Source: a virus. From it: DNA of 25,087 bases. Under the pieces are notes generated by a model. It was not told the DNA's origin, ran no database searches, and was given only the letters and a program-made list of their open reading frames with translations. This document shows, one piece after another, positions 2,290 through 23,261 of this stretch. The number at the start of each line of letters is the position of its first letter. Position 1 is the first letter of the stretch. The stretch is taken from positions 1-25,087 of IMG/VR virus record IMGVR_UViG_3300044712_001076; one strand, written 5' to 3'. Position numbers and translations under genes: made by a program.

Positions 2290-3283
2290 TACTGCCAACA
2301 TGTTTTTCCGTGCCCGGCACCAAGCACATCGGGCCAGCGACAGTTGGACCAAATTGGGCTTTGCATTGCACCTTACTTTGATGAGTGTGAACAAGGTAGC
2401 TCGCAGGTTCAAAGCCGACCACGTGGTTTTTGCACTGGAAGGTCGCAGCTGGCGCAAAGACTACTATGAGCCCTACAAGAAAAACCGTGCCGTGGCTCGC
2501 GGTAAAATGACCGAAGATGAAGCTGAAGAGGACAAGCTGTTCTGGGAAACCTACGATAGCCTGACTAAATACTTGAGCGAAAAGACAAACTGTAGTGTTA
2601 TCCGTTGCGCCACTGCTGAAGCAGATGACGTAATTGCTCGTTGGATTGCACTGCACCCCCAAGACGAACATGTTATCATCAGCTCAGACACTGACTACGT
2701 TCAGCTCGTTGCTGCCAACGTCAAACAGTACAATGGCATCACTGATGAACTGATCACTCTTGAGGGCGTTTTTGACGACAAAGACCGACCTGTGCTAGAC
2801 AAGCAAAAGAAACCCAAACTAGTTGAGGATCCACAGTATCAATTGTTCCTCAAGTGCATTCGCGGAGATGTGTCTGACAACGTGTTCTCAGCATTTCCTG
2901 GTGCTAGAGAAACAGGTACCAAGAACAAAATTGGCATTCGTGATGCCTACGAAGACCGCGGCAAGAAAGGATTCAATTGGAACAATTTCATGCTGCAACG
3001 TTGGACTGACCATAACGAAGTTGAGCACCGTGTACTCGACGACTATGAGCGCAATCGTACCCTAATCGATCTCACTGCACAACCTGATGATGTCAAACAG
3101 GCTGTAGACACTTGCATTCGCGAACAAGTGAGCCACAAAGACATCGGCCAGGTTGGCGCACACTTCTTAAAATTCTGCGGTAAGTTTGAACTTACCAAGC
3201 TCAGTGACCAAGCAGAGGCTGTGGGCCGTTGGCTCAATCAGCATTACACTGGGCACCTATCACCTGCAACGGAGACACAATGA
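2270..3283 (+). CDS. 5'-3' exonuclease / RNase H (T4 Rnh / FEN-type)
   Basis: 337 aa, close in length to T4 RNase H (305 aa). Motifs of the FEN/PIN-like nuclease family: LLIDTANMFFRARHQ (residues 4-18, metal-binding Asp7), FALEGRSWRKDYYEPYKKNR (54-73), TAEADDVIARW (115-125, acidic cluster), SSDTDYVQL (138-146) and RGDVSDNV (198-205, helix-hairpin-helix entry). It would remove RNA primers and 5' flaps on the lagging strand during phage DNA replication. The gene overlaps the SGNH-like gene upstream and the next gene by ATGA, so it is expressed in the same transcript. The family is secure; the name rnh is by analogy with T4. Confidence 0.92.
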   Translation: MRYLLIDTANMFFRARHQAHRASDSWTKLGFALHLTLMSVNKVARRFKADHVVFALEGRSWRKDYYEPYKKNRAVARGKMTEDEAEEDKLFWETYDSLTKYLSEKTNCSVIRCATAEADDVIARWIALHPQDEHVIISSDTDYVQLVAANVKQYNGITDELITLEGVFDDKDRPVLDKQKKPKLVEDPQYQLFLKCIRGDVSDNVFSAFPGARETGTKNKIGIRDAYEDRGKKGFNWNNFMLQRWTDHNEVEHRVLDDYERNRTLIDLTAQPDDVKQAVDTCIREQVSHKDIGQVGAHFLKFCGKFELTKLSDQAEAVGRWLNQHYTGHLSPATETQ

Positions 3284-3735
3284 CCCTGGTAGCAAAACCT
3301 ATCATCGACAAACAATACTGGATTATCAAACAAGACAATCAAAAAATTGGCAATGTACAACAGACACAAGATGGTTCGTTTCAAGTGACCATTGCTGGGC
3401 ATGTCGCCAGTTTCAAAACAATCAAGAACTTGCGCAAACAAGTTGAGATTGAGTTTGCAGATCCTGAACAAAAAAGCAAGCCTCCGCGTGATGTAGTACA
3501 CGGATATCACACAGGCTGCAAGGCTCACAACGCCATGTGGGATGTCAAACGTAAACTACCGTTGTTTACCAAAGATGCCAAAAGCAAATCATGGTATGCT
3601 GCTGGATGGTATCTAGTCAAGCAACATCGCACTTGGAAAGCAGTACAAAATCCCAAACTAATTGTGTTGGACCGTTACAAATACCAAGGACCTTTTCACA
3701 GTAAAGAAGAAGCAAATGACAAATCCGTTTCGTGA
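3280..3735 (+). CDS. conserved phage hypothetical protein, 151 aa
   Basis: Start chosen at ATG 3280, which overlaps the upstream TGA and has GGAG at 3271; a longer in-frame start at 3229 lies deep inside the exonuclease gene and is less likely. N-terminal beta-rich half (residues 12-60) ends in a helix KTIKNLRKQVEIEF; the second half has VVHGYHTGCKAHNAMWDVKRKLPLF (split: HGYHTGCKAH and DVKRKLPLF), typical of a hypothetical protein family in T4-like cyanophages. No enzymatic motif is assignable. It overlaps the MazG-like gene by 20 bases. Confidence 0.8.
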   Translation: MTLVAKPIIDKQYWIIKQDNQKIGNVQQTQDGSFQVTIAGHVASFKTIKNLRKQVEIEFADPEQKSKPPRDVVHGYHTGCKAHNAMWDVKRKLPLFTKDAKSKSWYAAGWYLVKQHRTWKAVQNPKLIVLDRYKYQGPFHSKEEANDKSVS

Positions 3736-7216: not shown

Positions 7217-8606
7217 CGGACTCTGTGATATTTACACCAAGCCAAGGCAAGCTGTCATTGGCATGTCCTGCAAAGCCCTGTTTGGGCTGTATGACATTGT
7301 CCATTGTACGCTGATAAAATGTTCTAAGCAACTGTTTGGGATACTGCCCAACCCTCAAGTGCCACGGCAAGTTCAGTGCAAACTCTATAATCCGACGATG
7401 CATAAAAGGATTACGTGTTTCCCGACCCCAGTGGCCGCCCAGTCTGTCCAGTCCTGGTGCGTCAACACCTACCACTTGATACCAATAGTCCATGAGCAAT
7501 GTAGCAGGTCTGGGATCACCGTGGTAGCAATCCAAACACTGTTGCCATAGGCTATCGTGGTCATCTGTGCTGTAAGGGCTAGAGCATTGATCAGCAGAGT
7601 AGTCTATGGTTTGATAAACACCGTAACCACCAAACAGTTCATCAGCTGCCAGTCCTGTGAAAATAATTCGATTAGATGCATGCTGAGCCACCAACCATTT
7701 GCCCACATAACTCCAGGTCTGTGCAGGCATTTGAGTTTGTTCAATCAGTGATCTGTAGTGCTGTGCCCACTGTTGCGGATCCACAGAGATCTTTGTGCAG
7801 TTTAGCGAATCCACAATGGGGTCTTTGCCCACTATGTCTATGGCAATTTGTTCCATGCCTGCTGTGTGTTTGGCAATCAACTGACTGTCAATACCCCCAC
7901 TGTAACTCAAAGTAGCAGGCTGCTCAGGACGCATGCTGCCACACACATATTGCCACAGTTGTTCAAACTGAGTCACTGCTTGTTCAAGGTCAAGGTCCAG
8001 GGGCTCTGTGATCCAATCAAAGATGCTGTCGAGTTTTCTTACGGCTTGCCCATCTTTGTACATCATGCCCGGTTCGCAACGAGTGATACCACGCCAGGGC
8101 GTTTGACTGATCATAGTCCAACACTTGTTACGGTAGGGCACTGCCTGCGGCGCACAGTCAACATAGGCCAGTATTGCAGTGACTTCGCTGGCTACAATCA
8201 AGATGTCATCGTCCTGATAGTGATACAAACAACGTTCGCCCTGCGGATCTGCTGCATACAGCACAGTTTCAAAATCAGTCCATGCCCAAGCCCAGGGTCC
8301 TTCAAAGTACTGAAACTGTTTGGTATTTCTTGTCACAGCACGATGAACCAATTCAGTATCTGAACTGTAGTTTCCAAATCTACGATAGTTGTAGATCTCG
8401 CCGTTGTAACTTAGGAAATCATTGTGAGTTTGTTGGTAGTAGTCGTTGGTGCCTGTAATACGCAACACTGTTTGAGCAATGAACACTGTGTCACGATGTT
8501 GGTACCTAGTGAAATCAGGACCACGAGGTTCCAGGGTTTTCACTGCTGCCAAATGGCGCTCTAAAGCAATGGGCGCTGAGCTACGAACATACAATACACC
8601 GCACAT
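7152..8606 (-). CDS. asnB: asparagine synthase (glutamine-hydrolysing)
   Basis: 484 aa from ATG 8606. The start is set by MCGVLYV, which exposes Cys2 as the class II glutaminase nucleophile; a longer reading to 8639 is therefore rejected. Domain order: glutaminase with RGPDF, YNGEIYN (67-73) and SSDTE (81-85), then the synthetase domain with the PP-loop YSGGIDS (about 235-241) and TGLAADELFGGYG (317-329). The enzyme transfers ammonia from glutamine to an activated aspartate or related carboxylate. At 484 aa it is shorter than E. coli AsnB (554 aa). Its ATG overlaps the upstream TAA (TAATG), so it is coupled to the glycosyltransferase-like gene. Phage AsnB-like enzymes may amidate other substrates. 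Confidence 0.9.
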   Translation of the reverse strand: MCGVLYVRSSAPIALERHLAAVKTLEPRGPDFTRYQHRDTVFIAQTVLRITGTNDYYQQTHNDFLSYNGEIYNYRRFGNYSSDTELVHRAVTRNTKQFQYFEGPWAWAWTDFETVLYAADPQGERCLYHYQDDDILIVASEVTAILAYVDCAPQAVPYRNKCWTMISQTPWRGITRCEPGMMYKDGQAVRKLDSIFDWITEPLDLDLEQAVTQFEQLWQYVCGSMRPEQPATLSYSGGIDSQLIAKHTAGMEQIAIDIVGKDPIVDSLNCTKISVDPQQWAQHYRSLIEQTQMPAQTWSYVGKWLVAQHASNRIIFTGLAADELFGGYGVYQTIDYSADQCSSPYSTDDHDSLWQQCLDCYHGDPRPATLLMDYWYQVVGVDAPGLDRLGGHWGRETRNPFMHRRIIEFALNLPWHLRVGQYPKQLLRTFYQRTMDNVIQPKQGFAGHANDSLPWLGVNITESGDRYQDWKQIAQQTFSDYTTA

Positions 8607-14900: not shown

Positions 14901-15275
14901 ATGCAAATCACAGAAGATCAGTTTCGATTTGAATGGTTCTCCGGCACAGGCAAGGGAGGACAGCATCGCAACAAGCACCAAAACTGTTGCCGTTGTATCC
15001 ACGAGCCCACTGGAATCTCTGCCAACGGAACCAACAGTCGCAGCCGTGAAGACAATCGTGCCGCGGCATACTCTGTGTGTCGTAGTCGCGTGATGGCACA
15101 CTACCATCAGGATACTCCGCGATTCCAAGCCGGAACAGAGCGTATCCGCACCTATCACGAACCAGACAACCGTGTCACAGATCATGCATCGGGCTTGACA
15201 GATTCATGGACCAATGTTATAATCAAAGGCGACATAGAACCTGTGCTCATGGCCAGGGCTAGAGCAGTTAGATAA
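14901..15275 (+). CDS. stand-alone GGQ-domain peptidyl-tRNA hydrolase (release factor domain 3-like)
   Basis: 124 aa. FSGTGKGGQHRNKHQNCCR carries the GGQ tripeptide at residues 19-21, the catalytic element of class I release factors. ERIRTYHEPDNRVTDH (81-96) matches the 'RIRTYN-PQ-RVTDHR' segment of RF1/RF2 domain 3. The stop-codon-reading domain 2 (PxT or SPF) and domain 1 are absent, so it cannot recognise stop codons in the usual way. By comparison with ArfB/ICT1 and PrfH it may release peptides from stalled ribosomes; ArfB's basic C-terminal tail is absent apart from a short ARARAVR end. Lies between tRNA-Met and tRNA-Arg. No clear ribosome binding site. Confidence 0.85.
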   Translation: MQITEDQFRFEWFSGTGKGGQHRNKHQNCCRCIHEPTGISANGTNSRSREDNRAAAYSVCRSRVMAHYHQDTPRFQAGTERIRTYHEPDNRVTDHASGLTDSWTNVIIKGDIEPVLMARARAVR

Positions 15276-15554: not shown

Positions 15555-16097
15555 ATGAAAACAGTTGGCGACAAACTGGCACCCTTTGCCATTACCGGCG
15601 TAAAACCTGGTCAACCCGAAGATGCTTTCTACACCATCAACGAGGAAAGCTTTCCAGGCAAGTGGAAAGTGATTGTATACTACCCCAAGGACTTTACCTT
15701 TGTTTGCCCTACTGAAATTGTGGCCTACGACAAGTTGGCACAAGACTTCGAAGACCGCGACGCTGTGTTGCTCACTGGTAGCACCGACAATGAGTTCTGC
15801 AAGGTAGCTTGGCAAAATGCTCACGCCGATCTCAAGAAGATTCGTCATCACCAGTTTGCTGACACACAGCGCGGTGAACTCAGCCTGATTGAGCAACTGG
15901 GTGTGTTCTACGCACCTGCTGGCGCTGCACTTCGTGCCACATTCATTGTTGATCCCAACAACGAAATCCAGCACGTTACTGTGAACAACTTGAACGTTGG
16001 CCGCAGCCCAGAAGAAACACTGCGTATTCTTGACGCTCTGCAAACTGGCGAACTGTGTGCTTGCAACCGCACCGTAGGCGGCGAAACACTGAAGTAA
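15555..16097 (+). CDS. ahpC: alkyl hydroperoxide reductase / peroxiredoxin AhpC
   Basis: 180 aa 2-Cys peroxiredoxin. PKDFTFVCPTEIVAYDK places the peroxidatic Cys at 51, and ELCACNRTVGG gives C-terminal Cys168 and Cys170 as resolving residues. The overall pattern, including IVDPNNEIQHVTVNNLNVGR and ILDALQTGELCACN, is the AhpD-dependent (mycobacterial-type) AhpC rather than the AhpF-dependent form. It reduces H2O2, alkyl hydroperoxides or peroxynitrite. It is first in an operon with a class II aldolase and ahpD, the expected reductant partner. On a phage it would count as an auxiliary metabolic gene protecting the infected cell. Confidence 0.95.
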   Translation: MKTVGDKLAPFAITGVKPGQPEDAFYTINEESFPGKWKVIVYYPKDFTFVCPTEIVAYDKLAQDFEDRDAVLLTGSTDNEFCKVAWQNAHADLKKIRHHQFADTQRGELSLIEQLGVFYAPAGAALRATFIVDPNNEIQHVTVNNLNVGRSPEETLRILDALQTGELCACNRTVGGETLK

Positions 16098-16099
16098 GC

Positions 16100-16720
16100 A
16101 TGCTTGAAACTATCTGTGAAACACTGGTAGAAGCGTACCGTCGCAATTGGATTACCAGTCGCGATGGTAACGTTAGCATACGCCACCACGACAGGGATCA
16201 CTTTTACATCACGCCAAGTGGTGTGCGCAAGCAGACACTGCAACCTGACCAGTTCAAGAAGATCAGCATTCACGGACTGCTGTGGCAAGAAGATTACTAC
16301 ACTGACATCAGTGCCAATCTAAAACCCAGTGGAGAACTGCCCTTGCACTTTGGTCTACAACGTGCCATGGGACAACACAGCAATGATGTGCGAGTGGTAG
16401 TTCACTTGCACCCTACTTACTGTGTTGCTGCCATGCATGCTGGCATTGAGCTAGGAGCAATCGCAAAAGAGTTCCCTGAACTCAGCCGTTATACCCGGGT
16501 GGCATACAATGTAGGAGATGTGCCACCTATCAGTCAAGAACTTGCAGACCAGTGCCACCATCATCTTGAACTAGATGACCGTGGTAACATTGCTTACGAT
16601 ATTGTAGGCATCAAAGGACATGGTGTTGTTGCTATTGATACCTCACCATGGCGTGCGTTTGAACACATAGAAAGACTGGAACATATTTGCAAAATTGTTC
16701 TAGCAAGCAAAGGAAAATAA
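16100..16720 (+). CDS. class II aldolase/adducin family protein
   Basis: 206 aa from ATG 16100, two bases after ahpC; an in-frame extension to 16055 falls inside ahpC. Family features: DGNVSIR (22-28), YITPSGVRK (36-44), the Glu in SGELPLH (E79), zinc ligands H102 and H104 in VHLHPTYCVAA, and the third ligand H174 in GIKGHGVVAI. This set matches fuculose-phosphate aldolase / ribulose-phosphate epimerase / MtnB enzymes. The substrate cannot be read out. Position between ahpC and ahpD suggests an unrelated metabolic gene in a stress operon, or a role with reactive aldehydes (inference). Confidence 0.88.
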   Translation: MLETICETLVEAYRRNWITSRDGNVSIRHHDRDHFYITPSGVRKQTLQPDQFKKISIHGLLWQEDYYTDISANLKPSGELPLHFGLQRAMGQHSNDVRVVVHLHPTYCVAAMHAGIELGAIAKEFPELSRYTRVAYNVGDVPPISQELADQCHHHLELDDRGNIAYDIVGIKGHGVVAIDTSPWRAFEHIERLEHICKIVLASKGK

Positions 16721-16721
16721 A

Positions 16722-17237
16722 ATGACACAATGGGTAGATCAACTCAAAGAAACCATCCCTGACTATGCCAAGGATGCACGGCTCAACATTGATGCTGTGA
16801 TCAAGCGTAGTACACTGCCAGTGGAGGAAGCCGAAGCCTGTGCGCTGGCTGCTGCTTTTGCATCTGGTAATACCAAACTGTGGACTTGGATTCACAGCGT
16901 AATTACTGATCGCAAAGAAGCAGATGCTGCTGTCACAGCTGGTTCGATCATGGCTCAAAACAACACTTGGTACCCATTTGTTGAAATGGCCGAGGACGAA
17001 CAGCTCAAAGGATTGCCTGCACAACTGCGCATGAATGCCATTGCCAGCCACGGTGGTACAACCAAGGCCCGTTTTGAAGCATACAGCCTGGCTGCATCAA
17101 TTGTAGGCAAGTGTCATTTCTGCGTCAAAGCTCACTATGACACACTCAAGCAAGAAGGCTACACAGTGGAACAACTGAGAGATATCGGACGCATTGCTGC
17201 GGTTATGAACAACGTGGCCAAGGTAATGACTGGCTAA
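16722..17237 (+). CDS. ahpD: alkyl hydroperoxidase AhpD
   Basis: 171 aa, same length class as mycobacterial AhpD (177 aa). The redox motif VGKCHFCVKAHYD has C131-x-x-C134 and H138, the E-C-C-H relay being completed by Glu in KARFEAYSLA (E119). The N-terminal half MTQWVDQLKETIPDYAKDAR aligns by eye with AhpD starts. AhpD carries electrons from lipoylated dihydrolipoamide acyltransferase to AhpC. The ahpC-aldolase-ahpD operon thus encodes a complete peroxidase pair that would draw reducing power from host lipoyl enzymes. Stop is followed by a terminator hairpin. Confidence 0.93.
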   Translation: MTQWVDQLKETIPDYAKDARLNIDAVIKRSTLPVEEAEACALAAAFASGNTKLWTWIHSVITDRKEADAAVTAGSIMAQNNTWYPFVEMAEDEQLKGLPAQLRMNAIASHGGTTKARFEAYSLAASIVGKCHFCVKAHYDTLKQEGYTVEQLRDIGRIAAVMNNVAKVMTG

Positions 17238-17239
17238 CC

Positions 17240-17260
17240 AAAACACCTTGATGTGTTTTT
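17240..17260 (+). terminator. rho-independent terminator after ahpD
   Basis: AAAACAC (17240-17246) pairs with GTGTTTT (17253-17259) around CTTGAT, followed by more T. The loop and right arm also contain the -35 box of the next promoter, so terminator and promoter overlap. Confidence 0.65.
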
Positions 17261-17276
17261 CAAAATCCTGTATAAT
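17248..17276 (+). promoter_or_regulatory. sigma70-type promoter within paired hairpins
   Basis: TTGATG (17248-17253), 17-base spacer, TATAAT (17271-17276). The -10 box is inside a second hairpin (AAATCCTGTATA with TATACAGGATTT, 17263-17294). Transcripts from this promoter start near 17283 and so contain only the right arm, while read-through transcripts contain the full hairpin, which would act as a second terminator. Confidence 0.65.
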
Positions 17277-17298
17277 AAGTACTATACAGGATTTTTTT

Positions 17299-17862
17299 AT
17301 GATCAGCTCAAGTCCAGAACGCAATACTTTTCAAATTGAATCTGCAATCAAGCAAGCAGAACAAGGCAAAACTTCTGCAGAGCATGCTGAGAGCATGATC
17401 GAGCTGTTCAAAAGCATGAACCAACACCGCAGGGATCAGGAACAAGATCCTGAGTGGCAAAAAAACAACATGGAATACGACCTGCGCAGTTCAGACTGGA
17501 TGGTGGCCAAGGTTCGTGCATCCGAAGCCTATGCACAAAATTTGTATGCAGCCATGTGCAATCGCGACTTTCAAAAGAACGAAGTTTGGCCGCAGTTAAA
17601 GAACCAAACCTGGAGTTGCAGTTGGCGTTACGCAGGCGGTATCATAGCAGACATGCGCGGTCAAGGCGACTACATTGATTGGTACTGTTCAGGCATTGTG
17701 GGCATGGATGACGATCAGTTTCAGGATCTGGATGCAGAAGCAAAAGAACGCTACCTATACATGAAAAACAACTTTGTAGGTGAAGGTGTAGTCACTGACC
17801 AAATTCGTGAAGACTTGTTTCGTTTGGGCTGGATAGTGCTAGACGACGAGGACTCAGCATGA
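17299..17862 (+). CDS. conserved phage hypothetical protein, 187 aa
   Basis: ATG 17299, with AGGA (17288-17291) as ribosome binding site inside the right arm of the upstream hairpin; the frame is open to 17248 but this would precede the promoter start. Helical, acidic N-terminal part (IESAIKQAEQGKTSAEHAES), then WSCSWRYAGGIIADMRGQGD followed by YIDWYCSGIVGMD, a strongly conserved-looking block that I associate with hypothetical proteins of T4-like cyanophages. C-terminus FVGEGVVTDQIREDLFRLGW. Function unknown. Confidence 0.8.
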   Translation: MISSSPERNTFQIESAIKQAEQGKTSAEHAESMIELFKSMNQHRRDQEQDPEWQKNNMEYDLRSSDWMVAKVRASEAYAQNLYAAMCNRDFQKNEVWPQLKNQTWSCSWRYAGGIIADMRGQGDYIDWYCSGIVGMDDDQFQDLDAEAKERYLYMKNNFVGEGVVTDQIREDLFRLGWIVLDDEDSA

Positions 17863-18116
17863 GTTTTTATTGCGGGCCAGTGGCAAAGTTAATTCAAACC
17901 ATCGAAGATTCCACTGTGTGGGAAGTGGTAGATGTTATCGATGTTGACACCAACCGGGACGAAAACATAAACATGAATTTTTCTCACAGCATTTATGCTC
18001 GTGCAGCATTTGTTCCTGCTGACGCAATTGCAAATTTTGACTTGCATTCTACAAAGACTGTTAAAAGGGTATTCGATCACAACAACGAAGTTGAGCAATG
18101 GAGTGCCCAGCTGTGA
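17859..18116 (+). CDS. hypothetical protein, 85 aa
   Basis: Starts at an ATGA overlap. MSFYCGPVAKLIQTIEDSTV, then a beta-rich middle and a C-terminal helix VFDHNNEVEQWSAQL. No motif is recognised. The gene overlaps the following PP-loop gene, so the three genes 17299-19147 probably form one operon. Confidence 0.7.
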   Translation: MSFYCGPVAKLIQTIEDSTVWEVVDVIDVDTNRDENINMNFSHSIYARAAFVPADAIANFDLHSTKTVKRVFDHNNEVEQWSAQL

Positions 18117-19147
18117 TTGTTAATTTTGATTTACAAAAAGTCTTACACTTATACAAAACTGATCAGCTTGACAAAGAGATTGTGAATCCCGACGGGGAAC
18201 GTTACGTCAACCAGTGGATAGCATTCATCATTGAACTAATGAGAATTCGCGGTGCTTCACCTACCAGAATTAATTTTGGTTATGTTGATCGCACTGCGAC
18301 TGTGCCCAGCATTGTCAAAACTCACATACCCACGGATCAGCTGATCCCCAGCGGTCAGCCTGCTAGCTTTGATTATTTAGATATCTGTTTACAAAGAGCA
18401 CAACAGCTACTTGACACCAACAAACACATAAATGTTTTATGGAGCGGTGGTCTTGACAGCACAGTTGCTTTGTTCTCGTTTTTGCGCCAGGCAAAACACT
18501 TAGATCAGCTCAGTATTATCTGTACGTTTGAAAGCATTCTTGAGTCGGGAAAATTGTTTGACTCTACCATTCGAAATTCAGGAGTTCGAATCAAATTTGA
18601 CCAGACCAGAAATGAATGTAACCTACCATACAGCTATGACAGCGAGGATCCTGATCAGTTGTACATAAATGGTCAGTGCGGAGATCAACTGTTTGGGCCA
18701 GCTAGATCCATACACCAGTCTGGTGTTGGCCCAGATGATCACTGGAGCAAAGGTTTTTCCCAAAGTTTTCTCGACATTATTGAGCCCAGCATCAAATTCA
18801 GTCCGCGTCCTATAGATACTGTGAGAGATATGCGATGGTGGTTGTTTTTCAATCACACATGGACCACAGTGTTGTATGATGATTGCATTGAGCGACCAGC
18901 ACATGTTGCTAGACGAATCAGGGCTTTTTATGCAACACCTGAATTTCAGCGTTGGAGCATGCATACCCCCAGCTACTACGAACGCACAGAGCAGTATAGA
19001 TGGCCAGCAAAACAAGCGTTGAGTCAGTTGATTGATTATCCTTATTACATACAGCACAAGAAAAAAAGCTTGAGCTACACTTGGAACAAAAATATCAACT
19101 GGTACATGCTGGATAAAGACTTTAAAACTTACTACATAGATAAATAA
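18098..19147 (+). CDS. PP-loop ATPase, asparagine-synthase-like domain without glutaminase
   Basis: 349 aa from ATG 18098; GTG 18113, overlapping the upstream TGA and preceded by GGAG, is a credible alternative start. INVLWSGGLDSTVALFSFL holds the PP-loop SGGLDST (116-122), and INGQCGDQLFG corresponds to the 'SGxGADELFGG' segment of asparagine synthases. There is no class II glutaminase domain and no N-terminal Cys, so ammonia would have to come free or from another protein. The reaction is likely ATP-dependent adenylation of a carboxylate or similar group. It may work alone or with the AsnB at 7152-8606. The substrate is unknown. Confidence 0.75.
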   Translation: MECPAVIVNFDLQKVLHLYKTDQLDKEIVNPDGERYVNQWIAFIIELMRIRGASPTRINFGYVDRTATVPSIVKTHIPTDQLIPSGQPASFDYLDICLQRAQQLLDTNKHINVLWSGGLDSTVALFSFLRQAKHLDQLSIICTFESILESGKLFDSTIRNSGVRIKFDQTRNECNLPYSYDSEDPDQLYINGQCGDQLFGPARSIHQSGVGPDDHWSKGFSQSFLDIIEPSIKFSPRPIDTVRDMRWWLFFNHTWTTVLYDDCIERPAHVARRIRAFYATPEFQRWSMHTPSYYERTEQYRWPAKQALSQLIDYPYYIQHKKKSLSYTWNKNINWYMLDKDFKTYYIDK

Positions 19148-19164
19148 TAGTCTACATCTTTTTA

Positions 19165-19175
19165 CCCCCCCCCCC
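19165..19175 (+). repeat. poly-C tract (11 C) before a ribosome binding site
   Basis: Eleven consecutive C directly followed by AGGAG and, nine bases later, the ATG of the Bug-like receptor gene. Long C or G tracts in such leaders can vary in length by slippage and change expression. It may also be a place where read assembly is unreliable. Confidence 0.6.
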
Positions 19176-19188
19176 AGGAGAAAATTCA

Positions 19189-20088
19189 ATGAAAAAACTA
19201 CTTGCAGTTCTTGCAACCGCATTGTCTTGCGTCACGGCACAAGCAAACCCTCAACCGGTACAGATTGTCTGGCCTTTTGCAGCAGGCTCAACACAGGCCA
19301 TAATGGTTCGAAATTTGATTGAATCAGCCAATCAACAGCAGTCTAAATATCAGTTTGTGTTTGTAAACCGACCTGGTGCCGGCGGTGCTATTGCAGCAAA
19401 TTACACAACCGCATCAAACACACTCACAGTGCTGGCATCGACCAGCAGCTTTTATACCAGACCGTTGATGTACAACGAAAGTCACGACCCTGAGCAGTTT
19501 CGTTTGGTCAGTGCAATTTGCTTGCAAAGCCCACTGGCAATGTTCAGTCGCAAGTATGCATCATTCAACGATTTGAAAAACAACAATGTTACCGTAGGAA
19601 TAAATCCAGGATCAGTAACACAACTGTTTACACGATTACTTGCACAAAACAATCCAGAATTGAAATTTACAGATGTGCCCTACAAAGGAACTCCAGAAGC
19701 TACCACAGACATGTTGGGCAAGCACATTGACACCAGCATTGACTTGCTGAGCGTGGGAAATTTGGCCAGACTGACCCCAGACACCGCAGTGATTGGGATT
19801 TCAGGAACTCGTAGCTTACCAAACATGCCATCATTCTCTAGTTTAAAAGTAAAAGGACTGGACAATTTGACCAACAGCTACTATGTCTTTGTGCCTCGTT
19901 CAACCGATGCTGCCACAGCGCAAGAGCTCAACAGAATTTTCAACGCTGCGATAAACGATGCAGTGCGCGAAAGTTGCAACAATGAGCGTGGTGTTGTGGA
20001 AATTGTACCGTTTGATCGCACAGAAAAACTACATCAAACCAACCAAGCTCAGTGGCGCCAAATCACCCAAGGTATTGCAAAACAATAA
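19189..20088 (+). CDS. Bug/TctC-family periplasmic solute receptor
   Basis: 299 aa. Signal peptide MKKLLAVLATALSCVTAQA, cleavage likely after TAQA. Family blocks: VQIVWPFAAGSTQ, FVNRPGAGGAIAANY (the hallmark 'NRPGAGG' of Bug proteins) and DVPYKGTPEATTDMLGKHID. These proteins bind carboxylates for tripartite tricarboxylate transporters and are very numerous in Burkholderiales. No TctA/TctB membrane genes are in the window, so the phage protein would either load a host transporter or only bind ligand. The length is slightly short for the family (about 320 aa). The leader has the poly-C tract and a strong AGGAG site. Confidence 0.88.
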   Translation: MKKLLAVLATALSCVTAQANPQPVQIVWPFAAGSTQAIMVRNLIESANQQQSKYQFVFVNRPGAGGAIAANYTTASNTLTVLASTSSFYTRPLMYNESHDPEQFRLVSAICLQSPLAMFSRKYASFNDLKNNNVTVGINPGSVTQLFTRLLAQNNPELKFTDVPYKGTPEATTDMLGKHIDTSIDLLSVGNLARLTPDTAVIGISGTRSLPNMPSFSSLKVKGLDNLTNSYYVFVPRSTDAATAQELNRIFNAAINDAVRESCNNERGVVEIVPFDRTEKLHQTNQAQWRQITQGIAKQ

Positions 20089-20091
20089 ATA
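20084..20091 (+). promoter_or_regulatory. candidate T4-type late promoter (AATAAATA)
   Basis: AATAAATA includes the TAA stop of the Bug-like gene and is followed by AAGGAGAT and the GTG at 20109. The position relative to the next start (17 bases) is the same as at 4306. It differs from TATAAATA in the first base. Confidence 0.4.
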
Positions 20092-20108
20092 TAAAAAAGG
20101 AGATACCC

Positions 20109-21062
20109 GTGAAAACCATCACACTCAAATGGATTATCGCTCACCAGCCTGTTTACTTGTTTCAGCGAGTAGCTGAAGATTTCAAACGCATTGTCAACGC
20201 CAAAAGCAAAGACGTAAACATTGATATCGAAATTCTTACTGCAGAAGAATTCAACAGCAAATACAAACCCGCTGTGGAAGCCAATCGTCATAACTTGTGG
20301 GAATTTTTACAAGACAACACAGTGCAGATTGCGCAGATGCAGACCACCAGCCTGGCTCGTCAAGCCAACAAACAGATGCATGTGTTAGACATGCCGTACT
20401 TGTTTGAGGATCATGATCATGCTGCTGCGGTACTGGAAGGCACAGTGGGTCAGCAACTGTTGAACAGCTTTGACGCCAACAGCAAACTAAAAGGCTTGGC
20501 CTACACATATTCAGGTGGTTTCCGCCTTATGCCTATGTCAGGCAGTGTGACCACCCTGGGAGAAATTGCTGGACAAAAAGTGCGTTCGGGCATGAGTCAC
20601 ATAGCACAAGATACCATGCGAGCTTTTGGATTTGATCCAGTGCCCACTGAAATCGACGGCGTGACTGACGTAGTCAAGTCTGGCCAAGTGGTTGGTGCCG
20701 AACATGTTGCACAGCGACTGCTGCCCGATCAATGCGACGGATGGATCAACAGCATTGTTGATACACAACACAGTTTGTTCTTGACCAGCATTGTGGTCAA
20801 CGTTGATTGGTGGAACAGTCTTGATGCTGGCGTGCAGCAGATTTTCAGCGAAGCTGCTGTGGAAGCTGCTCGCAATGAACGAGCACTTAGCTTGCAAGAC
20901 GGTGAAGCCAGCTTGAAGAAACTGCAAAACAACGGCGTAACTGTGGTCGAGTTGACTCAAGATCAAATGTCAGATCTACGTCAAAAGGCCGAAACAGTTT
21001 ACGAAAAATATGCTGACTTCTTTGAGCCAGGATTGGTTGACAGCATTAGAACATTGCATTAA
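20109..21062 (+). CDS. DctP-family solute-binding protein lacking a signal peptide
   Basis: 317 aa from GTG 20109, fixed by AAGGAGAT at 20097-20104. The sequence starts MKTITLKWIIAHQPVYLFQR, which lines up with the mature N-terminus of TRAP-transporter DctP proteins; there is no signal peptide, and the short upstream extension (to 20052) does not look like one. Family blocks: LDMPYLFEDHDHAAAVLEG, KGLAYTYSGGFRLMPM, AGQKVRSGMSHIAQDTMRAF and a C-terminal EKYADFFEPGLVDSIR helix. DctP normally binds organic acids in the periplasm for DctQM. Without export it would be cytoplasmic, so its role may be binding of a metabolite or a new function. No dctQ or dctM is visible. Confidence 0.83.
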   Translation: MKTITLKWIIAHQPVYLFQRVAEDFKRIVNAKSKDVNIDIEILTAEEFNSKYKPAVEANRHNLWEFLQDNTVQIAQMQTTSLARQANKQMHVLDMPYLFEDHDHAAAVLEGTVGQQLLNSFDANSKLKGLAYTYSGGFRLMPMSGSVTTLGEIAGQKVRSGMSHIAQDTMRAFGFDPVPTEIDGVTDVVKSGQVVGAEHVAQRLLPDQCDGWINSIVDTQHSLFLTSIVVNVDWWNSLDAGVQQIFSEAAVEAARNERALSLQDGEASLKKLQNNGVTVVELTQDQMSDLRQKAETVYEKYADFFEPGLVDSIRTLH

Positions 21063-21187
21063 ACTATAGGTTATTGCTGTAAGAAGCAAAGAGAAAAGTG
21101 TTCTGGACGCAAAGGGCATCTAACCGTTCAGAACCATTTAAGACGTAGGTTCGATACCGCCCTGTATAAATACTATACGGAGGCGGT
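21063..21187 (+). other. intergenic RNA-like region with tRNA T-arm fragment
   Basis: Contains TTGCT/AGCAA and GTTCTG/CAGAAC hairpins and the tRNA-like T segment GTAGGTTCGAT (21146-21156), the same sequence as in tRNA-Arg at 15282. The expected CCTAC is missing, and no complete cloverleaf fits. TACCGCC (21155-21161) pairs with GGCGGTA (21182-21188) across the start of the endonuclease gene, with a TATAAATA motif in the loop. It looks like the remains of a tRNA cut at the T-loop. Confidence 0.4.
21165..21172 (+). promoter_or_regulatory. candidate T4-type late promoter (TATAAATA)
   Basis: Perfect TATAAATA, 15 bases before the ATG of the homing endonuclease, with GGAGG in between as ribosome binding site. 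The same transcript could continue into the tmRNA. The motif sits in the loop of the GGCGGTA inverted repeat. Confidence 0.5.
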
Positions 21188-22000
21188 ATGTTCTTTTATG
21201 TATATCAAATAACCAATTTAGTTAACGGTAAGATTTATGTAGGCAAGCATAAATCAGACAGGCACCCTAACGAAAATGGCTACTACGGCTCAGGCAAACA
21301 AATATCAGCGGCTATTAAAAAATACGGTATAGAAAACTTCAAAAAAGAAGTCCTATGCTATTGTTCGTCTATGGAAGAGATGTCTATCAAAGAAGCAGAA
21401 ATAGTCACAGAAGATTTTGTAAAACGAAAAGACACATACAATATGCACAAAGGTGGGCTAGGTGGCTGGGAACATATTAACCTAGATCCTACTAAACGCA
21501 AGGAAGTAAGTGCCCAGGCATCGAAAAGAGTTAAAGAATTAAAGTTAGGCGGAACACAACACTGGTCGGAAGAATCCTGGCAAAGGGTTAGGGCAAGTAG
21601 TTGGAGTGAATTAGTTAAAAAAGGAATAGTTAATCCTGACACTTGGGCGCACCTAACCGAAGACGAAAAACAAGCAAGACGAGAAAACATCTCAACTAAA
21701 GTATCCGGAAAAGGTAACGGATCTTACGGAACCAAGATCTACATAGACGAAACACACACTGGAGATCTTCCTCCGTCTAGTGTTTTAAACAAACAAAGAT
21801 ACAAGCCTGGTGAACAACCAGTTGGTTGGATTCCTGTAACAGAGTGGAGAGATCGTAAAAAGAATAAAAAAGCAAACGCATACGGTAGGCACTGGTATAA
21901 TGATAACCAAAAGAACTATTATTTGTATCCTACCGATGCTAAAATAGTAGAACTAAAATTAACAAAGGGTAGATTAATAAATAAAAATATCATCGTATGA
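21188..22000 (+). CDS. GIY-YIG homing endonuclease (Seg-like)
   Basis: 270 aa. GIY-YIG domain in the first 90 residues: FYVYQITNLVNGKIYVGKH (3-21), basic R25, and Glu69 in IKEAEIV as catalytic type residues. A helical middle and a motif KGNGSYGTKIYID close to NUMOD3-like DNA-binding repeats follow. Such proteins cut at a specific site and spread themselves into phage genomes lacking them. Codon use is clearly more A+T-rich than in the neighbours, showing separate origin. The TGA at 21998-22000 directly abuts the tmRNA acceptor piece, so the likely target is this tmRNA or its flank. No group I intron core was recognised around it. Confidence 0.87.
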   Translation: MFFYVYQITNLVNGKIYVGKHKSDRHPNENGYYGSGKQISAAIKKYGIENFKKEVLCYCSSMEEMSIKEAEIVTEDFVKRKDTYNMHKGGLGGWEHINLDPTKRKEVSAQASKRVKELKLGGTQHWSEESWQRVRASSWSELVKKGIVNPDTWAHLTEDEKQARRENISTKVSGKGNGSYGTKIYIDETHTGDLPPSSVLNKQRYKPGEQPVGWIPVTEWRDRKKNKKANAYGRHWYNDNQKNYYLYPTDAKIVELKLTKGRLINKNIIV

Positions 22001-22004
22001 AGCG

Positions 22005-22278
22005 AAGCGAAACGAGGTTCGGACGGGGCTAGCATTATGCCCCCAGGTCCACCAAAAGCATACTTGGAAGATTGAGAACTGATAAGAGCGGTGAAAGACC
22101 GACTAAAGTATGTTTTTGATGGGCCTGAACAGATTCGACGGAACTACTAGTAAATTAGCAGACGGTGCGGTAGGCGATGACCGTAAATCAAGCAAAACTT
22201 ATAAATGCTAACGACAGCGTTTACGCACTGGCCGCTTGAGGCCCGCTGAGGCAGGAATGCCAAGAAACAGAAACTTCC
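22005..22278 (+). ncRNA. ssrA: circularly permuted (two-piece) tmRNA
   Basis: The 3' acceptor piece comes first: GGAC, T-stem GGGGC/GCCCC (22025-22029 with 22039-22043, 9-base loop), then CAGGTCC and ACCA (22044-22054). An intervening segment closed by CATACTT/AAGTATG (22059-22065 with 22106-22112) follows. The coding piece starts at 22121 with GGGCCTG, which pairs fully with CAGGTCC (one G-U), and continues with AGATTCGACGG, the universal tmRNA 5' signature. The tag reading frame GCT AAC GAC ... TGA (22207-22239) encodes ANDSVYALAA, a normal proteolysis tag. ACGGT/ACCGT (pseudoknot-like) lies between. tmRNA rescues stalled ribosomes by trans-translation. The outer boundaries are approximate. 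Confidence 0.9.
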
Positions 22279-22306
22279 AAAAAGGCTACTTCGGTAGCCT
22301 TTTTTC
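22279..22306 (+). terminator. rho-independent terminator of tmRNA
   Basis: AAAAAGGCTAC, UUCG-type tetraloop TTCG, GTAGCCTTTTT: an 11-bp perfect stem with a T tail. The -35 box of the porin promoter starts immediately after. Confidence 0.92.
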
Positions 22307-22379: not shown

Positions 22380-23261
22380 ATGAAAAAAATCGTTATTGCA
22401 GCCGCACTGGCTGTGGCCAGTATGGGTGCCATGGCACAGGCCACAGTTTATGGCCGTATGAATGCCACTGTTGACAGTACCAAGACTGGAGCCGTTCGCG
22501 CTGACAGCATTGTCAACGACATCAGCCACATTGGCTTCCGTGTTCAGGAAGACCTAGGTGGTGGCCTACGTGCTCGTGCTGTGATCGAAACCAGCATTGC
22601 CAGCCAAGATCCCAACAACGGCGGCAACACTCAATTAGGTGATCGTCAGAGCACCGTGGGTCTGGCCAGCAAGGTTGGCAGTGTTGATGTGGGTCGCAAT
22701 GTTCACGGCGTGTTTACCACCCTGGCATCTGGAGACAGCTTCAACGCACTGTATGGCAGCATTGCCGGTGACGTTCACAACCTGCGTGGACTACGTCTCA
22801 GCAATGGCGTTTTTGCACAAGTCACAGCACTGCCTGGTGTGACCCTGGGTGCTGATCGTACCTACACTGCCACAGGCCAAGAAGCCACTGTTTACAGTGC
22901 TGGTACCAAGGTTGGCATTGCCAATGTAGGTGTTGCTCAATTTGACCAAGGTGCAGAAAAGTCTGTTGTGGCCAGTGCCAACGCCAAGTTCGGCGACACC
23001 ACAGTGTTCTACAGCTACAGCAACAACAAAGGTGCTTCTGCTTTTCAGGGCAATATGATTGGTACAAGCCAGAAGATTGGTGCTTATACCATCAAGGCCG
23101 GCTATGGCAAGACCAACAACAATGTTGAAGCCTACAACGTCGGTGCTGAATACGCTCTCAGCCGTCGCACTGACCTACTGATCAGCTATCGTAATGTTGA
23201 CAAAGCAGGAACATCTGCTGATGTCAAGCAAGTTGGTGTTGGTGTTACCCACCGCTTCTAA
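22380..23261 (+). CDS. Gram-negative porin (Burkholderiales-type, outer membrane)
   Basis: 293 aa with signal peptide MKKIVIAAALAVASMGAMA and mature start QATVYGRMNATVD, the standard opening of betaproteobacterial trimeric porins. Alternating beta strands with turns run to the C-terminus, which ends VGVGVTHRF with the terminal Phe required for BAM-mediated insertion. SHIGFRVQEDLGGGLRARAVIE is the classic second-third strand block (given here as SHIGFRVQEDLGGG and RARAVIE). It is shorter than host porins (about 340-380 aa), mostly in the loops, so surface loops are trimmed. It has its own strong promoter and terminator. On a phage it may replace host porins, change nutrient entry or block superinfection. 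Confidence 0.92.
   Translation: MKKIVIAAALAVASMGAMAQATVYGRMNATVDSTKTGAVRADSIVNDISHIGFRVQEDLGGGLRARAVIETSIASQDPNNGGNTQLGDRQSTVGLASKVGSVDVGRNVHGVFTTLASGDSFNALYGSIAGDVHNLRGLRLSNGVFAQVTALPGVTLGADRTYTATGQEATVYSAGTKVGIANVGVAQFDQGAEKSVVASANAKFGDTTVFYSYSNNKGASAFQGNMIGTSQKIGAYTIKAGYGKTNNNVEAYNVGAEYALSRRTDLLISYRNVDKAGTSADVKQVGVGVTHRF

Follow-up and report, generated by a model that had tools for sequence, protein, structure and literature searches.

The 25,087-nucleotide stretch of viral DNA analysed here (IMGVR_UViG_3300044712_001076, positions 1 to 25,087; called the window below, all window coordinates referring to it) carries a permuted two-piece tmRNA gene behind a gene for a Seg-type GIY-YIG homing endonuclease (HE). 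We consider it likely that this intact tmRNA is the downstream half of a mobile HE-tmRNA cassette, for which a cut-and-rescue mode of action is proposed below. Such a cassette may be the cause of the odd shape of the window's tmRNA. Loci and contigs compared with the window are given as L-numbers, L005 being Xanthomonas phage X1 (OQ427096.1) and L159 phage Melnitz.

The permuted tmRNA gene and its elbow

The initial annotation, made from the letters alone, had described a circularly permuted tmRNA in which the acceptor piece precedes the coding piece, with seven acceptor pairs, an intervening hairpin, and a tag (ANDSVYALAA) that ends in TGA ahead of a UUCG terminator. All of these parts were found (Table 1), the acceptor arrangement at 22044-22127, and the covariance-model search that it had suggested gave two matches over the cut-off. 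The Rfam model RF04321 (tmRNA_permuted) was matched along its full length (positions 1-213 of 213) at 21991-22239 with 108.2 bits (gathering threshold 47, E 1.4e-20), while RF01850 (beta_tmRNA), the best of its clan, gave a significant beta-type match of 101.9 bits (threshold 84, E 2.9e-30) at 21940-22305. The whole stretch folds better than its shuffled versions (z -4.38, 0/100 shuffles), and the differences between close relatives are largely compensatory changes. The G3-U70 pair of the acceptor stem (22123-22048 in the window) is present in 39/39 distinct phage sequences, and the end helix of the intervening sequence is swapped for other pairing sequences in L002, L003 and L006. The span first proposed, 22005-22306, does hold the features named, but it starts too late at the 5' side, as the 3' strand of P2 begins at 21991 and the leader at about 21976. 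It is thus almost certain that the window holds an intact permuted two-piece tmRNA gene. ARAGORN reported six tRNAs in the window and missed this gene, most likely due to its T-loop. Short ORFs, some of them hydrophobic, lie inside the intervening sequences of the permuted tmRNAs of L278, L310, L331 and Melnitz.

Table 1. Features of the HE-tmRNA region of the window
Feature	Position	Strand	Evidence or remark
Relic of the 5' part of a resident tmRNA (P2 3' strand, GGAC, first T-arm bases)	21058..21116	+	Best match to leaders of HE-less phage tmRNAs, 0/100 shuffles
T-arm look-alike overlapping the HE late promoter, candidate operator	21142..21165	+	GACGTAGGTTCGATACCGCCCTGT against T-arm GACGGCGGTTCGATTCCGCCCAGT of an HE-less phage, 0/200 shuffles
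Hairpin burying the HE ribosome-binding site (GGAGG, 21179-21183) and start codon	21154..21189	+	Fold z -4.06, 0/200 shuffles
T4-type late promoter TATAAATA in the 5' half of the hairpin	21165-21172	+	Sequence
Seg-type GIY-YIG HE gene	21188..22000	+	PF19835, 36.6 bits (above cut-off); phrog_314, 133.5 bits
Conserved leader AATAAATAAAAATAT ahead of the tmRNA, late-promoter-like	21976..21990	+	Identical in L002, L003 and L004, all without HE
P2 3' strand of the intact tmRNA	21991..22020	+	Start of RF04321 match; CATCGTATG pairs with CAGACGGTG at 22159-22167 (read from sequence)
GGAC and T-arm	22021..22043	+	5-bp stem 22025-22029/22039-22043 with T-stem covariation, 9-nt loop; G55 = 22032, C56 = 22033
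Acceptor 3' strand CAGGTCC and encoded ACCA	22044..22054	+	Seven pairs with 22121-22127
Intervening sequence with hairpin, predicted to be removed on maturation	22055..22120	+	End helix GCATACTT/AAGTATGT lengthens the acceptor stem
Coding piece, starting GGGCCTG, 3' end approximate	22121..22280	+	Rfam alignments; includes P2 5' strand
Acceptor 5' strand	22121-22127	+	Within the coding piece
D-loop	22128-22139	+	A18 = 22131, G19 = 22132
Tag reading frame, GCT..TGA, ANDSVYALAA	22207-22239	+	Resume codon and stop present
Intrinsic terminator with UUCG loop	22279..22305	+	Fold; RF01850 match ends there

The T-loop of nine nucleotides, TAGCATTAT, had already been noticed as unusual. As the surrounding 5-bp T-stem covaries among relatives (GGGGC/GCCCC, CCGGC/GCCGG and GGGGA/TCCCC), the loop is real. 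The exact T-arm of the window occurs on three further viral contigs and a looser pattern on 14. Rfam recognises a permuted tmRNA in 13 of these 14, and the remaining one is truncated at the end of its contig. Neither exact nor loose pattern searches found a tmRNA with such a loop in 84,980 bacterial and archaeal genomes; a pattern match in Vibrio AND4 was due to chance, with no tmRNA at that place. The window loop thus departs from the seven-nucleotide UUCGANU form, which is not strict, as alphaproteobacterial members deviate from it too. One of the contigs bearing a 9-nt T-loop arm, the tRNA-rich phage contig L014, also carries a GOLLD RNA (2968-3431).

We compared the D-loop/T-loop elbows of 39 distinct phage tmRNA cores and of 34 distinct bacterial tmRNAs, only one of which is a likely beta member. 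They follow a simple rule: A18 and G19 go together with G55 and C56, or G18 and G19 with U55 and C56. The rule is kept by 38/39 phage sequences (19 of each kind and one exception) and by 34/34 bacterial ones, and no exception was seen among 75 intact phage genes with another leader, where the D-loop was readable. It spans T-loops of 6, 7, 8 and 9 nt (AAAGG going with TATCGTAT, for instance, and AAAAG with TAGCATTAT), and it is also valid in L048 and L053, one-piece phage tmRNAs with A18/G55 elbows and the T-loops TAGCATAA and TGCGAAT. The sole exception, found in L047, L050, L055 and L058, is a phage tmRNA of the permuted type that combines a T-loop of 5 nt (TCGAT) with the D-loop AAAAG. As the same rule holds across loop lengths, the loop of the window forms an odd but coherent elbow. 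Two other ideas about the elbow were rejected. A compensation by C19-G56 fails for L007 and L012, which have A at that D-loop place, while G19-C56 combined with A18/G55 suits nearly all elbows. Nor is the switch exclusive to phages, as alphaproteobacterial tmRNAs, with their GGCRGTA loops, share the A18/G55 type. Such paired variants of D-loop and T-loop offer ready material for testing how the tmRNA elbow is read by SmpB and the ribosome.

The homing endonuclease, its insertion point and the altered T-arm

The HE gene ends inside the tmRNA, its stop codon lying in the 3' strand of P2. Besides the profile matches given in Table 1, its product falls just under the cut-off for PF01541, and its N-terminus aligns weakly with I-TevI. 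A hairpin covers its ribosome-binding site and start codon and holds a late promoter in its 5' half; the same layout is known for I-TevI and segB (PMC2988022). The T-arm look-alike that overlaps this promoter recalls the operator of I-TevI, a mimic of the homing site of that enzyme, and might by analogy serve as an operator. Of the cassettes with that layout, only three, namely the window's and those of its two closest relatives, have a significant look-alike. We rejected a T-arm-like operator as a general feature, since it was significant in 5/25 distinct cassettes as compared to 3/35 controls.

A search for the HE family gave 80 loci, the 31 nearest of which are called here the near family. 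In every near-family locus not cut by a contig end (28/28), a permuted tmRNA recognised by Rfam follows directly behind the HE on the same strand, and two of the three cut loci still show the T-arm. The initial annotation had not noticed this association. No tmRNA lies behind the more distant HEs (0/29; Fisher 7e-17, a value that overstates independence because the sequences are related). In one distant locus, L222, a tmRNA lies only about 1.2 kb upstream of the HE.

The other side of the HE gene holds the remains of a second tmRNA. The relic in the window, which comprises the 5' part of a resident gene, also aligns with the relic of L012 (0/500 shuffles). Relics were found upstream of the HE in 24/32 loci (17 of them distinct), each beating 100 shuffles, and in 0/49 distant-HE controls. 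The relics of L195 (GGGTTCGA), L202 and L256 (both GGGTTCGAC) and that of L310 (GGGTTCGACT), a locus with no HE, end at the same T-loop place. A comparison of the empty locus L278, which has no HE, with the occupied locus L179 gives the same insertion point. Collinearity of the two extends over about 640 bp on the upstream side and resumes downstream. On the left, L179 still matches L278 across the leader, GGAC and the T-loop up to its final base (GCGAAT), and the HE starts at this point. After the HE, L179 has a new leader, then a T-arm whose loop differs (TATCGTAT), and a coding piece that is homologous to the one in L278. The picture is the same in L319, and L279 repeats its left side. It is thus very probable, judging from these sequence comparisons, that an HE-tmRNA cassette entered a resident tmRNA gene at the T-loop and that the window's tmRNA is the downstream part of this cassette. 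Two further arrangements need to be mentioned. In L019 (1-1100), a Seg-type HE separates a truncated permuted tmRNA from another one that is complete and has a different T-arm. In L044 and L054, as compared to L008, an insertion of about 1 kb with a related HE has taken the place of 33 bp that hold GGAC and the T-arm; this might reflect a tmRNA that is broken or an assembly that is chimeric, and both loci were kept out of the main evidence.

One might argue that the T-loop is a general hot spot of recombination or integration, at which varied cargo arrives with a restoring copy, the HE being one of several. tmRNA genes are known as integration sites (PMC11915505), and the loci L310 and L265 do have a relic ending in the T-loop, followed by a methionine-aminopeptidase-like ORF and no HE, with an intact permuted tmRNA after it in L310. 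Since the cargo differs there and an HE is absent, some T-loop insertions need another mechanism. As a general account, however, the hot spot is improbable, as the loci read show no integrase adjoining the tmRNA, the T-loop site is where every near-family HE is found, and an HE is by itself a sufficient agent.

The tmRNAs that follow an HE differ in their T-arms from those that do not. The common core G[GAT]T[TG]CGA is kept by 1/22 distinct HE-linked T-arms as compared to 13/16 distinct HE-less ones, the latter coming from a set picked by means of one leader pattern. Relic T-arms are canonical where they can be read (L195 GCGGGTTCGA, L202 AGGGGTTCGA), whereas the tmRNA behind the HE is not. 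These statistics fit with an HE that would cut the canonical arm and a recoded arm that would resist it. The HE-linked tmRNA of L200 has a canonical T-loop, and altered T-arms exist without an HE in L002-L004, L008, L014, L043 and L051; recoding is therefore not strictly tied to the HE. The HE-less phages with a recoded arm could have resistant alleles or the original state.

We thus propose the following scenario. The HE would cut the T-arm of a canonical phage tmRNA gene, including that of a competitor, and repair would then copy in the HE together with a complete tmRNA that brings a new P2 strand and T-arm. The carried tmRNA, being recoded in its T-arm, would no longer be cut. In this view the 9-nt T-loop of the window and the D-loop that partners it would together make up a recoded elbow of this kind, with function kept through the paired changes at 18 and 55. 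In infected cells the tmRNA would take part in trans-translation, using the host's SmpB. The cassette could then be a natural home-and-rescue element of aquatic T4-superfamily phages. We put this forward tentatively and with slightly more doubt than confidence, the cutting and the resistance being deduced from the pattern of insertions and T-arms. If it is true, cut-and-rescue would drive fast change in an RNA tertiary contact that is otherwise nearly invariant, and it would also account for the presence in phage tmRNAs of T-loops that escape ARAGORN.

A less eventful history would be that of an ordinary phage permuted tmRNA next to which an HE was inserted once, as a hitchhiker, and co-inherited, the differences in the T-arm being lineage drift with an alpha-type elbow. 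Alphaproteobacterial tmRNAs already have this elbow and the GGCRGTA loops, Melnitz and HTVC008M share the elbow type without a 9-nt loop, and recoded T-arms occur, as said, without an HE. A single adjacent insertion is hard to reconcile, however, with relics of several leader types and flanking genes that vary between cassettes, with canonical relic T-arms upstream of non-canonical tmRNAs, or with the L278/L179 pair, in which the insertion lies within the gene. We thus regard the hitchhiker as a serious but unlikely alternative and prefer repeated insertion of a cassette into the T-loop.

Phage context, lineage and possible function

The claim that a phage carries this tmRNA is well founded. 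Contigs of relatives bear T4-type genes for gp32, baseplate hub and wedge, and topoisomerase II, and the window itself has a 5'-3' exonuclease, a virion protein family and the Seg-type HE. Genes of bacterial type are also present at 15555-21062 and 22380-23261 (AhpC-like, class II aldolase, CMD family, TctC, DctP and porin), and AhpC-like and CMD relatives adjoin the tmRNA in L003 and L004 as well. The porin, TctC and DctP genes, which suggest a Burkholderiales-like host, might also raise the suspicion of a bacterial contaminant or a chimeric contig. Such an artefact is extremely unlikely, as the same tmRNA leader and T-arm occur on independent contigs with T4-type phage genes and the exact searches of the 84,980 genomes gave no bacterial copy.

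The lineage signals of the tmRNA are mixed. The initial annotation had suggested capture from a betaproteobacterial host, and this is not supported because the elbow (A18/G55) is alphaproteobacterial in type. The beta-type elbow (G18 G19 with UUCGAUU) is absent from the window's tmRNA, although the bacterial sample holds only one likely beta member. On one hand, the beta model scores best; on the other hand, the elbow is of the alpha type. Permuted tmRNAs were found on more than 100 phage contigs, so that a history of inheritance and exchange between phages would be simpler to assume than capture from a host. The exonuclease of the window shares 51% identity with that of the jumbo Pseudomonas phage PA5oct, and no tmRNA was found in the phages with the closest named exonucleases (PA5oct, XaC1, XbC2 and BF). 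Among named phages, the closest nucleotide relative of the tmRNA is a weak match only (E 0.1) to Xanthomonas phage X1, which has an unannotated permuted tmRNA with a canonical T-loop at about 121009-121337. Xanthomonas is a gammaproteobacterium, a group expected to have a one-piece tmRNA.

With an intact tag, the G3-U70 pair and a coevolving elbow, it is plausible that the window's tmRNA is active in ribosome rescue, as had been supposed from the start. We searched 28 phage records, most of them fragments, and found no SmpB gene, so that a phage-encoded SmpB partner was rejected and the host's SmpB would be needed. This, together with an unusual elbow at the expected SmpB contact, might also indicate a decoy or antagonist RNA, which would tie up host SmpB or ribosomes and complete no trans-translation. 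Such a role is reported for the tag-less tmRNA of phage DS6A, a precedent cited in PMC11915505. Intact and diverse tags with typical endings (ANDSVYALAA, ANDDYFYQDLKLAA, ANDSQFALAA), the conserved G3-U70 and the coevolving elbow make the decoy quite improbable, and rescue is the preferred function. Two neighbouring observations concern the same process. The window encodes, at 14901-15275 between tRNA-Met and tRNA-Arg, an RF-1-domain protein of 124 aa with a GGQ motif (GTGKGGQHRNK), possibly a second ribosome-rescue factor in the same phage. L045 has, at 7810-7910 behind a run of tRNA-like sequences, a tag-less mini tmRNA of about 100 nt (acceptor, D-loop and T-arm only), similar in kind to that of DS6A.

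Comparison with known systems

In gene order, G3-U70 acceptor stem, D-loop, P2 and tag frame, the window's tmRNA resembles the permuted two-piece families (RF04321, RF01849 for alpha and RF01850 for beta); unlike them, it has the 9-nt T-loop that exact searches of bacterial and archaeal genomes did not find. Permuted tmRNAs in phages were already reported with Melnitz (PMC9004378), where they make up 53/133 unique phage tmRNAs detected by ARAGORN. Methylophilales phage Melnitz and Pelagibacter phage HTVC008M are, like the source of the window, T4-type aquatic phages with a permuted tmRNA and an A18/G55 elbow, but their T-loops have 7 nt, and the passages of PMC9004378 consulted mention no HE adjacent to the tmRNA. 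Since ARAGORN misses T-loops such as that of the window, surveys based on it would overlook such genes, and phage tmRNAs are probably more numerous than published counts indicate.

The HE is similar to the free-standing Seg GIY-YIG endonucleases of T4 (PMC2988022), among which SegB lies in a tRNA cluster. It shares with them the Seg type, the hairpin over the ribosome-binding site and late promoter, a putative downstream promoter embedded at the end of the HE, and, as proposed, intronless homing. Unlike them, it lies within a gene, between a relic and a full copy, and this gene is a tmRNA, a word absent from that review. Group I introns, some with LAGLIDADG HEs, are known in the T-loop of tmRNA (tmRNA_intron, PMC11915505), and they too are mobile HE elements in the T-loop region; in contrast, the window has neither intron nor splicing, and a complete second copy restores the gene. 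A search of the open-access literature gave no description of a link between free-standing endonucleases and tmRNA genes. It appears to be new that tmRNA genes are the recurrent home of a dedicated endonuclease family, as does the insertion point in the T-loop, with the gene restored by a second copy that has an altered elbow.

The closest parallel to the proposed mechanism is found in engineered home-and-rescue gene drives (PMC7968924), in which the nuclease is directed at a gene and comes with a recoded rescue version of it. Here, too, the nuclease gene sits inside its presumed target gene, as indicated by the relics and the L278/L179 pair, the target being deduced from the insertion site. 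The differences are that the cassette of the window is natural, that it resides in phages, and that its rescue copy would be an RNA gene, with cutting and resistance predicted from the comparisons above. If the proposal is true, the HE-tmRNA cassette would be a natural counterpart of such engineered drives.
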